From NCBI GenBank assembly GCA_017550445.1, contig JAFZOV010000122.1, forward strand, positions 1-15,218: a stretch of DNA of 15,218 nt. The letters are read 5' to 3'. Position 1 is the stretch's first letter. The number at the start of each line of letters is the position of its first letter. Both the position numbers and the translations under genes were made by a program. A model generated the notes under the pieces. That model searched no databases. It had not been told where the DNA came from and saw only the letters and a list, made by a program, of their open reading frames with translations. The DNA comes from Fibrobacter sp. GTDB taxonomy: Bacteria; Fibrobacterota; Fibrobacteria; Fibrobacterales; Fibrobacteraceae. Positions 1,420 to 10,700 of this stretch are shown piece after piece.

Positions 1420-3006
1420 TTACGAAAGAGACGCAAACAGCGCTTTGAGCTTTTCAGCGTTTTTGATGCCGGGGACATCTTCGATGCCGCTGGAAACATC
1501 GACCAGTTCGGGGCTGAATTTCGCAACCAAATCGGCCACATTTTCGGGATTGATTCCGCCTGCAAGCCAGAGAGGGATATCCCCCGCTTTTTCGCGCAAC
1601 AGGCTTTCGGGAATCTGCTTACCCGTGCCGCCAGGAATTCCTTCGACCTTAGCATCCAAGAGAATGCGGGGTTCGCCGCTCTTGCGGAGGGCGGCCACCT
1701 TGTCAAAATCAGATTCTTCGCCGACGCGGGCAGCGCAGTAATGCGGTAAGTCGCTGAATTCGGCTCCAGGAAGCACGCCGTGGAACTGAACCGCATCAAG
1801 CACACCTTCACGGGCAAGCTTAATAGCAGTTCTGCCTTCGGTGGATTCCGGATCGGTGATAACACCAACGAGAAGAGGAGATCCTTCGACTCCGCTGACG
1901 CGGAGTTTACCCTGAGCCTGTCGAATGGGCTCAGGATGACAACTGGAGCGGAACTTGGTCGAGAACGACCTTACAAATTCTTCAGTGGTCAAGCGCTTGG
2001 TGGTGCTGAACACAAAGCCAAGCATATCGGCACCCAGTTCGGCAGCGAGCAAGCCATCTTCTTCGCGGGTGATGCCGCAGATTTTTACCATCGGTCGAGT
2101 CGCTCTTTGGATTGCTTCGCTTCGCTCGCAATGACGTGCAAAATGAGCAGCCTTGCGTTCTGCATACTTTTTCCAGAACTGACCCTTCGCATTTTCGCGA
2201 CCATTTTCGAAAGAGCCGACCACTTCTTTGGCAAGCGGCGGATTCTTGGCAACCGCCTCGCCCACCAAAATACCCGTAAACCCGAGGCTACGCGCATAGG
2301 CAGCATCGGCGCCGCTATGAATGCCAGATTCAAAGACAGCTTTTGCCGGGAGCCTGCTACGAATCGACGCCGGAACCAGCGGATCCGTATGGAAAGTCGC
2401 CAAGTCGCGAGAATTGACACCCGCCACCACCGTCTTGGCAGCAGCATCGCCCAAGGCTTCCGTCACAACTTTCAACTTGCGCAAGTCATCGGCTTCGCGG
2501 ACTTCCACAAAGGCCTGCATATCAAACGATGCAGCACGCTTCGCCATACGCACGAGTTGTTCATCATCAAGAATGCGGGCAATCAAAAGCACAGCATCGG
2601 CACCGCAACGGTAAGCAATATCGATTTCATCTTCGAACAAAAGGAAATCTTTGCGAAGGACGGCACAGGCATGCAAGCCCTGCTTACGGCGGGAATCCAT
2701 CAAGTTCGCCACCGCAATCAAATCGCGCAGCGAGCCCTTGAAAAAGTTACCTTCGGTAAGCACCGAAACTGCCTGCGCATGAGCTTCGGCATAAGTCGTC
2801 GCAAGTCCCACCGGATCAAGGTCCGGTGCAATATCGCCCTTCGAAGGCGATGCACGCTTGACTTCGAGAATCGCACCCGCATTACCGAGGAATTCCGTAT
2901 GGCCCACCTGGCGTTTTTCAGGAATGTCAATTCCAAAATTCAAGCCAAGCCGCTCGATATCCTCGCGGCGCATGCGTACGATTTTCGCTAAAATGTCTTC
3001 GCTCAT
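1420..3006 (-). CDS. trpCF: Fused indole-3-glycerol-phosphate synthase / phosphoribosylanthranilate isomerase
   Basis: The 528-residue protein carries out two consecutive steps: isomerisation of phosphoribosylanthranilate by the C-terminal half and ring closure to indole glycerol phosphate by the N-terminal half. TrpC spans about residues 1-265, with EVKRASPSKG, SVLTE, LRKDFL, GVNSRDL (usually GINNRDL), ESGI and GILVGEAV. TrpF starts near residue 306 with MVKICGI (catalytic Cys), then GVITD, VQFHG, LLDAKV (likely catalytic Asp) and GGTGK. The linker (about 291-301) and TrpF between helix 2 and strand 3 (about 356-376) each contain a translated palindromic repeat; the reading frame is intact. 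A TTG lies one codon upstream (3009), but the ATG at 3006 has AAGGGA before it and is preferred. It starts 9 nt after the permease stop, so the two are probably co-transcribed and coupled. Confidence 0.95.
   Translation of the reverse strand: MSEDILAKIVRMRREDIERLGLNFGIDIPEKRQVGHTEFLGNAGAILEVKRASPSKGDIAPDLDPVGLATTYAEAHAQAVSVLTEGNFFKGSLRDLIAVANLMDSRRKQGLHACAVLRKDFLLFEDEIDIAYRCGADAVLLIARILDDEQLVRMAKRAASFDMQAFVEVREADDLRKLKVVTEALGDAAAKTVVAGVNSRDLATFHTDPLVPASIRSRLPAKAVFESGIHSGADAAYARSLGFTGILVGEAVAKNPPLAKEVVGSFENGRENAKGQFWKKYAERKAAHFARHCERSEAIQRATRPMVKICGITREEDGLLAAELGADMLGFVFSTTKRLTTEEFVRSFSTKFRSSCHPEPIRQAQGKLRVSGVEGSPLLVGVITDPESTEGRTAIKLAREGVLDAVQFHGVLPGAEFSDLPHYCAARVGEESDFDKVAALRKSGEPRILLDAKVEGIPGGTGKQIPESLLREKAGDIPLWLAGGINPENVADLVAKFSPELVDVSSGIEDVPGIKNAEKLKALFASLS
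1880..1940. repeat. Dispersed palindromic repeat inside the TrpF coding region
   Basis: The element contains two perfect hairpins, ACTCCGC/GCGGAGT (1889-1906) and CCTGAGCC/GGCTCAGG (1911-1935), flanked by ATCCTTCGA and ATGAC. This GTCATCCTGAGC...GAAGGATCT type of sequence is a widespread bacterial intergenic repeat. Here it is read in frame as the segment around SCHPEPIRQAQGKLRVSG, replacing what is normally a short loop in TrpF. Confidence 0.85.
2105..2136. repeat. Dispersed repeat in the TrpC-TrpF linker
   Basis: On the minus strand this is CGTCATTGCGAGCGAAGCGA followed by AGCAATCCAAAG, a common bacterial interspersed sequence with ATTGC/GCAAT ends. It is translated in frame as HCERSEAIQ between the two enzyme domains, where extra residues should be tolerated. 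Confidence 0.85.
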
Positions 3007-3015
3007 CAAATTCCC

Positions 3016-8766: not shown

Positions 8767-9444
8767 ATGTTCTACAAACACTGGAAAAAATTGGCACTTG
8801 CTTTGACCGGATTTTTCTGGGCCAGTTGCGACTTCGGATCTTCTTCGAGTGAAGAAGCAGCCCTCTATGGTTGTCCACCGGAAGGTTGCGAGCCCAACCC
8901 CGCTATTTCCAGTTCCAGCACCGAAGGAAACCTTTCGAGTAGCGCAACAGAGACTTCTAGTTCTTCTGAAGAACAAAAGCCTGTTTCCAGCAGCGAAGAT
9001 TTCGGCAAAGTAGTTCCTCTGTACGGTATCGAATACGAAAAATTCGTATCCTCGAGCAGCGCAGAAGAATCTTCAAGCAGCTTTACAGAAATCATGCCTG
9101 CCTACGGAGTTCTTGATAAAATCGCTTGTATCCAAAAACCGGGCGAAAAAACAATGCTCTGCGACGACGGAGTCACCTGCAAGCAAGTGACCGAAGAACG
9201 CTGGGCACCCGAAAACCCCTGCGTTGACGAAATCTGCCCCGATTACGGCGTCGTTCAGATTTCCGAAAACACCTATGAATGCGACGGCGTTAAATACAAC
9301 GAAGCCGAATTCCACGCCCGTTACAAAAAGATCACTGAAGCCGAAAATTCTGAACAGGATTCCTCTTTCCAAGGAGAAATACAACCGGCCCTTTACGGTC
9401 CACCTTGCGTATTCAACGGAACCTGCGACGATGCTGAAAAATAA
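8767..9444 (+). CDS. Cys-rich lipoprotein, likely substrate of the adjacent radical SAM enzyme
   Basis: The 225-residue protein has a short basic N-terminus, a hydrophobic stretch and a signal peptidase II-like site WASC with lipid Cys21, so it is probably a membrane lipoprotein; Asp follows the Cys. Residues 24-105 are Ser/Glu-rich linkers of the kind common in Fibrobacter surface proteins. Five Tyr-Gly motifs are spread along the chain: ALYG (32-35), PLYG (84-87), PAYG (111-114), PDYG (158-161) and ALYG (208-211). Ten further Cys are present (36, 41, 121, 132, 138, 152, 157, 172, 214, 220). Together with the radical SAM gene 54 bases downstream, this resembles the 'radical SAM-associated putative lipoprotein' family of Bacteroidetes, in which YG motifs recur. 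Any modification is inferred. The ATG at 8767 has AGGAG at ideal distance; the frame upstream to 8605 is not used. Confidence 0.82.
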   Translation: MFYKHWKKLALALTGFFWASCDFGSSSSEEAALYGCPPEGCEPNPAISSSSTEGNLSSSATETSSSSEEQKPVSSSEDFGKVVPLYGIEYEKFVSSSSAEESSSSFTEIMPAYGVLDKIACIQKPGEKTMLCDDGVTCKQVTEERWAPENPCVDEICPDYGVVQISENTYECDGVKYNEAEFHARYKKITEAENSEQDSSFQGEIQPALYGPPCVFNGTCDDAEK

Positions 9445-9446
9445 GT

Positions 9447-9475
9447 AGGTGAACCTTGTTCGACAAGCCTCACCT
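9447..9475 (+). promoter_or_regulatory. Intercistronic hairpin between lipoprotein and radical SAM gene
   Basis: AGGTGA (9447-9452) pairs with TCACCT (9470-9475), and CTTGT pairs with ACAAG inside, with a TCG loop. No U-run follows directly, so it may stabilise the upstream message or limit read-through instead of ending transcription. The rest of the gap is a C/A/T-rich stretch (CACATTCTACATTACACATT) of the sort that recurs between genes in this group. Confidence 0.55.
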
Positions 9476-9498
9476 CACATTCTACATTACACATTTTT

Positions 9499-10575
9499 AT
9501 GAAACTCTCTCTTAAAAAGAAACTCGCACTCGAAGCTTATCGCCTTTATCGTCACAACGAAATCAAGGCTCATCCTCTTACGTACTTTTTCTGGGAATGC
9601 ACCCTGCGTTGCAACCTGCACTGTTTGCACTGCGGCAGCGACTGTGTAAAAGATGCTATTCCCGACATGCCCCGCGAAGATTTTATGGGCGTACTCGACA
9701 AGCTCGCCCCGCACATTGACCCAAAGCACTTTATTGTGGTGATTACCGGTGGCGAACCCCTGATGCGCCCTGACCTCGAAGAATGCGGCCAAGAAATCAA
9801 GAAACGCGGCTACCCCTGGGGCATGGTCAGCAACGGCCTCGCCATGACGCCGGAACGTTTCGTGAAGCTCCTGAACGCAGGTCTACGCTCGCTCACCATT
9901 AGCCTCGACGGCCTGCAAGAAAGCCACAACCATTTCCGCGGCGACCCGCATAGCTTTGAGCGAGCGCTGCGGGCCATTGACATGGCCGCCCACACCGAAG
10001 GCCTGACCTTCGATGTGATGACCTGCGTGAACCGCCAAAACCTCAAGGAACTGCCAAAAATCCTCGATATGCTCCTTAAAATCGGCGTCAAGCGCTGGCG
10101 TATTGCAACGGTGTTCCCCAAAGGCCGCGCCAAGGACAATCCGCTGTTCCAGCTCACGAACCAGGAATTCCGCCAGGTATTCGACTTCATTCGCGAAGTC
10201 AAGAAGCTGAATGTCATCAACGTGAATTACGGCTGCGAAGGCTTCCTCGGCAGCTACGAAAAAGATGCCCGCAACTACCCGTTCTTCTGCCGTGCCGGCG
10301 TGAACGTGTCTTCGGTGCTCTGCGACGGCAGCATCTCGGCCTGCCCGAGCCTGCGCGGCGACTACATTCAAGGTAACATCTACAAGGACGATCTGTGGGA
10401 AGTCTGGCAGAAACGCTACCAGGTGATGCGCGACCGCAGCTGGGCTAAAATCGGCGATTGCAAGACCTGCAAATACTGGCGCTACTGCGAAGGCTCCAGC
10501 CTCCACCTCCGCGACGAGAAGACCAAAGAACTCGCCTACTGCCACGTGAAGCGCCTCGAAGACGCCGGCGCATAA
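9499..10575 (+). CDS. Radical SAM/SPASM protein of the rSAM/lipoprotein type
   Basis: The 358-residue enzyme has the radical SAM cluster motif CNLHCLHC (Cys38, Cys42, Cys45) preceded by FFWECTLR, the GGEPL motif, and a C-terminal SPASM domain: CRAGVNVSSVLCDGSISACP, CKTCKYWRYC and a last Cys in AYCH. SPASM enzymes hold extra 4Fe-4S clusters and usually modify peptides or proteins. The gene follows a Cys-rich lipoprotein with repeated YG motifs, the likely substrate. Chemistry cannot be read from sequence. The start ATG lacks an SD, so lower expression than the lipoprotein is plausible. A strong terminator follows 18 bases after the stop. Alternative: an AdoMet maturase for another target. Confidence 0.9.
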   Translation: MKLSLKKKLALEAYRLYRHNEIKAHPLTYFFWECTLRCNLHCLHCGSDCVKDAIPDMPREDFMGVLDKLAPHIDPKHFIVVITGGEPLMRPDLEECGQEIKKRGYPWGMVSNGLAMTPERFVKLLNAGLRSLTISLDGLQESHNHFRGDPHSFERALRAIDMAAHTEGLTFDVMTCVNRQNLKELPKILDMLLKIGVKRWRIATVFPKGRAKDNPLFQLTNQEFRQVFDFIREVKKLNVINVNYGCEGFLGSYEKDARNYPFFCRAGVNVSSVLCDGSISACPSLRGDYIQGNIYKDDLWEVWQKRYQVMRDRSWAKIGDCKTCKYWRYCEGSSLHLRDEKTKELAYCHVKRLEDAGA

Positions 10576-10593
10576 GGCAAGAATTGCGAAAGT

Positions 10594-10630
10594 AAAAAAG
10601 CCGTGCCCCGCAAGTTGGGCACGGCTTTTT
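10594..10630. terminator. Bidirectional terminator after the radical SAM gene
   Basis: GCCGTGCCC (10600-10608) and GGGCACGGC (10617-10625) form a perfect 9-bp stem with an 8-base loop. It is flanked by AAAAAA on the left and TTTTT on the right, so it can stop transcription from both sides. Confidence 0.93.
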
Positions 10631-10700
10631 CCAGTAGGAGGTACACCTACCGGGGCTAGAACCTTGACCGCAGTTGTTCTTTCCCCCAAACAACTCCCTT
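10594..10700 (-). ncRNA. Candidate small structured RNA, unidentified
   Basis: Read on the minus strand, this gene-free stretch gives three hairpins in a row: AGUUGUU/AACAACU (10695-10672), CCGGUAGG/CCUACUGG (10653-10631, one G-U) and the terminator stem with a U-run. The G-run in the first loop can pair with CCCC before the second hairpin, a possible pseudoknot. The second hairpin exposes ACCUCC, which matches the anti-SD of 16S rRNA. No convincing promoter was found, and the hairpins also exist on the plus strand, so orientation is uncertain. The remaining gene-free bases (10700-10910) are AT-rich with small inverted repeats, such as GTTGTT/AACAAC at 10806-10823, and show no gene. Confidence 0.35.

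Follow-up and report, generated by a model that had tools for sequence, protein, structure and literature searches.

A Fibrobacter radical SAM/SPASM enzyme encoded next to a lipoprotein with five Tyr-Gly motifs: a candidate multi-site splicease system

Introduction

One of the closest described counterparts of the gene pair analysed here is PlpXY, the cyanobacterial splicease system. According to PMC10533398, the native PlpXY sites are MYG and LYG, the tag frames PIRP-X-YG-LPI and AVAA-X-YG-VVFP place Pro or Ala at position -2 relative to Tyr, and ketoamide production is independent of the leader. In the same paper, PlpXY did not accept LYG-bearing tags at the FtsZ positions tried, and two GYG versions were accepted, so that the motif alone is insufficient for PlpXY. 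Moreover, PMC10373908 states that a single precursor can undergo several XYG-directed events. Both PMC10373908 and PMC11117315 cite earlier work in describing spliceotide products as inhibitors of proteases; proteases are not mentioned in PMC10533398. The figure of 939 predicted splicease systems is that of Scott et al. 2022 (cited via PMC10533398).

A second related arrangement is the rSAM/lipoprotein system of Bacteroidales, in which a TIGR04133 enzyme is paired with a TIGR04134 lipoprotein. TIGR04133 is listed as 'hypoth_equivalog' and its NCBIfam name carries no function (release of June 2026). Our literature search found no paper on TIGR04133 or TIGR04134, none combining radical SAM, lipoprotein, SPASM and Fibrobacter, and none linking a lipoprotein with splicease or spliceotide; an earlier description is possible, for instance if TIGR04133 is among the 939 systems of Scott et al. 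2022.

Results

The window, i.e. the whole stretch of 15,218 nucleotides of Fibrobacter sp. DNA that was analysed, encodes on the plus strand a lipoprotein of 225 amino acids (8767..9444), which is a predicted multi-site substrate, and directly after it, as originally predicted, a co-directional radical SAM/SPASM enzyme of 358 amino acids (9499..10575). The gap between the two genes is 54 nt. The enzyme contains the CxxxCxxC motif as well as the Radical_SAM and SPASM domains, and one SPASM Cys (GGC motif) is absent. Based on their translations, the neighbours that flank the pair are trpE on the minus strand and a RelA/SpoT gene. Between 8690 and 10911, no further plus strand ORF of at least 60 amino acids was found save an overlapping frame inside the lipoprotein gene, and no PlpY-like (RRE-type) partner gene was found in the window. 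The intergenic gap contains a predicted hairpin (9445..9478, plus strand; RNA fold of 9440-9500, -13 kcal/mol, z -4.5) that could possibly set the substrate/enzyme ratio. A terminator-like hairpin is predicted 3' of the enzyme gene (10596..10629, plus strand; RNA fold of 10585-10640, -26.3 kcal/mol, z -5.1); it is absent from the sites given by a consensus scan. The Rfam search gave no match. Elsewhere in the window, a TrpC-TrpF-like fused ORF on the minus strand (1420-3009) contains stretches, e.g. HCERSEAIQRATR and CHPEPIRQAQGKLRVSGVEGSP, that resemble in-frame insertions of a repeated element.

By direct reading, the lipoprotein starts with the signal peptide MFYKHWKKLALALTGFFWAS (8767..8826), a possible recognition element, and this signal peptide terminates in W-A-S-Cys21, the lipobox Cys (8827..8829) being the predicted lipidation site. 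The predicted five [AP]-x-Tyr-Gly motifs are indeed present, i.e. ALYG (site 1, Tyr34, 8860..8871), PLYG (site 2, Tyr86, 9016..9027), PAYG (site 3, Tyr113, 9097..9108), PDYG (site 4, Tyr160, 9238..9249) and ALYG (site 5, Tyr210, 9388..9399), all on the plus strand. In 100,000 shuffles of the mature part of 205 residues, at least five YG occurred with a frequency of 0.0001 and five [AP]xYG occurred zero times. The mature protein contains 11 Cys and 30 Ser; the further claim that each motif lies beside Cys or an acidic/Ser-rich stretch is loosely right, since at three of the five sites a Cys is no more than three residues away from Tyr-Gly (YGC, CPDYG and YGPPC by direct reading). In the structural model (mean pLDDT 55), the lipoprotein is disordered apart from a small Cys-containing beta domain at residues ~118-190; sites 1, 2, 3 and 5 are in segments modelled with a pLDDT below 50 while site 4 is at a strand edge of the beta domain.

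The enzyme is a member of TIGR04133, which it matches over its full length with 622 bits (cut-off 425). By contrast, the lipoprotein matched no NCBIfam family at E<=1, including TIGR04134 (cut-off 39.8), and had only a match below the cut-off in Pfam. TIGR04134 matched five of five Bacteroidales lipoproteins and none of five Fibrobacterota lipoproteins. Thus, the proposed match to the rSAM/lipoprotein system holds for the enzyme and not for the lipoprotein. Compared to the Bacteroidales system, the enzyme family and the gene order are the same, and the Bacteroidales lipoproteins also have YG shortly downstream of the lipid Cys and, in several of them, a second time at the C terminus; the Fibrobacter lipoprotein differs by its Ser-rich stretches and by belonging to a family with up to eight YG sites. 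Moreover, a CarboxypepD_reg-like match was found in three TIGR04134-type lipoproteins (one over the cut-off) and is absent from the Fibrobacter lipoprotein. The original prediction had placed the system mostly in Bacteroidetes; in our samples, 62 of 120 Fibrobacterota genomes encode a TIGR04133 member as opposed to 2 of 198 Bacteroidota genomes, one of these two being a chosen centre carrying the gene.

The window enzyme has 95-99% identity to sequences on many Fibrobacter contigs. An enzyme relative was encoded in 130 stretches, of which the best 80 were kept; these gave 79 loci with an enzyme relative, and 76 of them offer at least 400 nt upstream. Using a lenient pattern, a lipoprotein-like YG ORF ending at most 1.3 kb upstream of the enzyme gene was detected in 74 of the 76 loci, and in 63 of these 74 the distance was at most 100 nt. 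The two loci missed by the pattern, L028 (cut contig) and L064 (signal without a Met in front), also encode YG proteins. Of the 51 lipoprotein matches obtained in eight whole Fibrobacter genomes, 43 were on contigs with a TIGR04133 match above the cut-off. Many Fibrobacter loci contain arrays of several YG lipoproteins; in L012, L014, L056 and L058, where the trpE and relA flanks are both present, two to four YG lipoproteins are encoded compared to one in the window. The adjacency expected in relatives is therefore borne out, and we conclude that the gene pair is real and conserved.

The lipoprotein has 618 homologues at E<=0.001, and the 120 of them that were listed contain three to six YG per protein. 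Across 38 homologues, sites 2-5 were YG in 139 cases and gaps in 13 with no substitution: YG was present in 28 at site 2 (10 gaps), 37 at site 3 (one gap), 38 at site 4 and 36 at site 5 (two gaps). Site 1 was YG in 23 of the 38, substituted in 14 and a gap in one. The YG motifs are, as anticipated, a conserved multi-site feature, with site 1 departing from the rule. Within the disordered regions, average identity is 95% for the eight Y/G columns compared to 55% for 122 other columns, 51 of which equal or exceed the weakest Y/G column. In the alignment of 39 rows, the six Cys at residues 121-172 are invariant and so are Y3, W6, K8, A10, L11, L13, F17, W18, A19 and C21 of the signal peptide.

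For a broader view of the motif, we used 110 Fibrobacter lipoproteins, dereplicated from 182 and selected by their signal peptide and not by YG. Tyr is followed by Gly in 312 of 1105 cases in these proteins and in 53 of 899 cases in control ORFs. At least one YG (maximum eight) is present in 104 of the 110 and absent from six. Pro or Ala at -2 (72%), Leu at -1 (46%), Val after Gly (50%) and Pro as the next residue (37%) make [PA]-X-Tyr-Gly-V-P the commonest context, and X in the 222 [PA]-X-YG sites among the 312 YG is Leu (88), Lys (53), Asp (23), Ala (20), Glu (17), Val (12) or another residue (9). Cys is somewhat enriched near YG, with 19% at -3 and 13% at +7 counted from Tyr, and reaches 6% at +2 and 8% at +4. 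In 29 lipoproteins from non-Fibrobacterota loci, the YG context is similar (P/A 45%, V 46% and P 46% at the corresponding positions) and the protein bodies are different. In some lipoproteins, e.g. those of L041 and L046, the YG unit is multiplied. Separately, the YG lipoproteins encoded upstream of the enzyme in L063, L065, L069, L070 and L072 are very short: roughly 35-60 residues follow the lipid Cys, and the two YG motifs lie near each other. Their spliced forms would be small lipopeptides.

The n-region of the signal peptide follows the pattern [KR]-x-[WFYL]-x-[KRN]-[ILVMAF] in 125 of 161 and 19 of 29 nearby YG lipoproteins compared to 9 of 55 and 2 of 16 others, a contrast that is exploratory and post hoc as the pattern was drawn up after the sequences had been viewed. 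At least five of the nine pattern-bearing others resemble the same lipoprotein family by eye. These counts give a hint, likewise post hoc, that the signal peptide may be what the enzyme recognises.

The enzyme scored equally close to TIGR04053 (139 bits), to TIGR04103 (138 bits), which we take to be the PlpX family, and to AhbD (134 bits). With a cut-off of 725 bits, the enzyme is not a member of TIGR04103, the PlpX equivalog; the published identifier for the PlpX family is IPR026482. Similarly, a Nostoc enzyme and a second Fibrobacter radical SAM enzyme (both described below) scored slightly higher against AhbD than against TIGR04133. The HMM score alone was therefore dropped as evidence of PlpX kinship, and because of the ties between TIGR04103, TIGR04053 and AhbD, trees were built.

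In three trees, TIGR04133, TIGR04103, TIGR03913, the second Fibrobacter radical SAM enzyme and three other enzymes form one clade (support 99/97, 100/99 and 100/100), separate from the NirJ, AhbD-like, MftC and PqqE enzymes tested. The first tree omitted rows L057, L073, L090 and L099; the second also omitted seven long or remote outgroups, including MftC and PqqE, and added three AhbD-like rows; the third included five of eight AhbD-like loci, with L120, L121 and L122 missing as the pattern did not extract them, L121 being the sole AhbD-like locus above the AhbD cut-off. Grouping with PlpX-family enzymes, which we took as a mark of a splicease, was thus observed with a TIGR04133 stem of 2.7 to 3.5 changes per column, and long branches of this kind are flagged by the tree tool as possible false joins. 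An alignment of 34 TIGR04133 and 5 TIGR04103 sequences has 51 invariant columns, of which many are general features of the superfamily. The residues in common include CNLxCxHCGS, CPSL, GNI and G-[FY]-[LY]-G-x-Y-E, the last of which is confined to TIGR04133, TIGR04103 and TIGR03913 among 17 rows.

The enzyme model (pLDDT 89) gave SuiB and SkfB, which are RiPP maturases, and the sulfatase maturase anSMEcpe as best matches in a fold search. Among ten sequence matches to solved structures, none was named splicease and the best were BlsE, PqqE and SkfB. In a tblastn search of a plasmid collection with the window enzyme, the 60 of 295 records that were listed include three close relatives (50-56% identical), two of them annotated as TIGR04133, and as the next best match a Nostoc enzyme annotated as TIGR04103 (853 bits, cut-off 725). 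The Nostoc enzyme is preceded by a Nif11 precursor ending in IALYGLPPELF and followed by an ORF of 71 amino acids without a Pfam match; the end of this PlpX-family precursor, ALYGLPPELF, compares with ALYGPP in the window. The X-Tyr-Gly motif in its published context, our second mark of a splicease, is present in the window lipoprotein, and PlpXY and the window pair have in common a substrate motif of the form [PA]-X-Tyr-Gly in which the second residue past Gly is often Pro. They differ in that PlpXY enzymes have 30% identity to TIGR04133, and in that the window has neither a PlpY-like gene nor a Nif11/NHLP leader, the substrate being an exported lipoprotein with several sites in which a lipoprotein signal peptide without an NCBIfam match stands in place of that leader. 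Sequence comparison thus points to a likeness to the splicease recognition site and to a clustering with PlpX-family enzymes, both of which the original prediction missed.

Two further systems belong to the same clade. In the GDL-motif system (TIGR03913), four of the eight DUF1843 peptides examined have x-Tyr-Gly near the N terminus, which suggests a related reaction; unlike the window lipoprotein, these peptides are small, lack a signal peptide and have one site, and the other four have Tyr-Met or Tyr-Ala instead. The N-terminal variants with YG are KPYG, MLYG, RPYG and QPYG, and GDL loci are at L093 4156-4869, L096 3290-3745 and L099 1528-2243. The second Fibrobacter radical SAM/SPASM enzyme has a TPR tail and is encoded in L109 (1504-2961, minus strand), L110 (1065-3419, plus strand) and L111 (1535-3899, minus strand); in L110 and L111 it adjoins a protein with 11-13 YG in tandem KYGYPC-type repeats. 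This partner is, like the window lipoprotein, rich in YG; it differs in lacking a signal peptide by eye and in having mostly Lys as X. At least three YG are present in 118 of 120 listed homologues of the KYGYPC-repeat protein, some of which are named Lachnospiraceae. In one of these 120, P0347, the N-terminal part matches PF09394, which we take to be inhibitor family I42. A chagasin-like identity of the partner was rejected: apart from this single homologue, neither Pfam nor PDB supported it for the proteins queried, and our literature search found no paper combining chagasin and radical SAM.

Discussion

The gene pair, the enzyme family, the conserved multi-site motif, and the clade and motif in common with PlpX-type systems are directly established. 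The likeness of the lipoprotein motif to the site that spliceases recognise, together with the place of the enzyme among PlpX-family enzymes, allows a specific chemistry to be put forward. From sequence comparison, we consider it likely that enzyme and lipoprotein form a multi-site splicease system that works like PlpXY, even though the enzyme is not a TIGR04103 member. The predicted tyramine-excising splicease of the PlpX kind would act in the cytoplasm, ahead of Sec export, on the unfolded pre-lipoprotein. Each [PA]-X-Tyr-Gly site would be a target at which the backbone is altered at X-Tyr, and not at Cys, such that up to five tyramine excisions would occur, each with a loss of C8H9NO (~-135.07 Da). 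The mature lipoprotein would then display up to five electrophilic ketoamides at the cell surface, most of them on flexible Ser-rich segments. The signal peptide may stand in for a RiPP leader as recognition element. We infer the chemistry, its timing and this leader role, and several observations count against splicing: the HMM ties, the long stem, the missing SPASM Cys, the lack of a PlpY-like ORF and of a leader, the three clade enzymes without an evident YG partner in the short stretches examined, the LYG tags not accepted in FtsZ, the substitutions at site 1 (14/38), the YG-free lipoproteins (6/110) and the DUF1843 peptides without Tyr-Gly (4/8).

SPASM enzymes catalyse many reactions, and on the basis of this general knowledge, the YG sites may be the target of another radical chemistry, i.e. 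a Tyr-centred C-C or C-O cross-link, C-alpha oxidation, epimerisation or an MftC-like Tyr decarboxylation without rejoining. The long TIGR04133 stem, the missing SPASM Cys and the best folds of the enzyme model would fit such a reaction; nevertheless, we judge it unlikely, as clade and motif both favour splicing while MftC and PqqE branch elsewhere. Moreover, because X and the downstream residues vary, no fixed partner for a cross-link is conserved beside Tyr-Gly across the family.

We find it quite improbable that the YG segments serve for docking or as structural repeats, with the enzyme acting on a different residue or substrate. The clade enzymes of L089, L091 and L097 would fit this view, as no YG partner is evident for them in the short stretches examined. 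YG is common to lipoproteins of very different architecture across phyla, and YG units are multiplied within some proteins. A pure repeat or structural role was rejected as the lead reading because YG is kept or deleted, and never substituted, at four of the five sites. Finally, a thioether or other Cys-based modification of the sactipeptide or ranthipeptide type between Cys and residues of the YG sites was rejected as the lead, and we regard it as highly improbable, because the coupling of Cys to YG is loose: for all the Cys in the mature part and their partial enrichment near YG, at each nearby position, Cys is missing from the majority of YG sites in the family, and the six invariant Cys sit in the modelled beta domain, fitting disulfides.

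If the sites are spliced, X would become the P1 side chain in a surface-tethered set of protease inhibitors. We infer this function by analogy with spliceotides and hold it only tentatively as the most likely of the possible roles; it fits with the varied X, the surface anchoring and the domain match resembling I42 that a single homologue of the sister-system partner shows. Less likely than not is the wider picture that Fibrobacter and, more sparsely, members of other phyla would be coated with lipoproteins spliced at up to eight sites, with the signal peptide as leader. In this picture, variable gene sets, which in close relatives comprise one to four lipoprotein genes at a given chromosomal site, would equip the surface with ketoamide inhibitors of proteases that differ in X (Leu, Lys, Asp, Ala, Glu, Val).

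If the splicing prediction is right, the rSAM/lipoprotein system would gain a defined reaction that is easily tested by mass, and backbone splicing would extend to exported lipoproteins and to many sites, with neither a RiPP leader nor a PlpY-type partner encoded alongside. TIGR04133 would also be a candidate tool for putting several bio-orthogonal ketoamides into one protein. It would also point to a role at the cell surface for these lipoproteins, a multi-copy family in bacteria that degrade fibre in the rumen.
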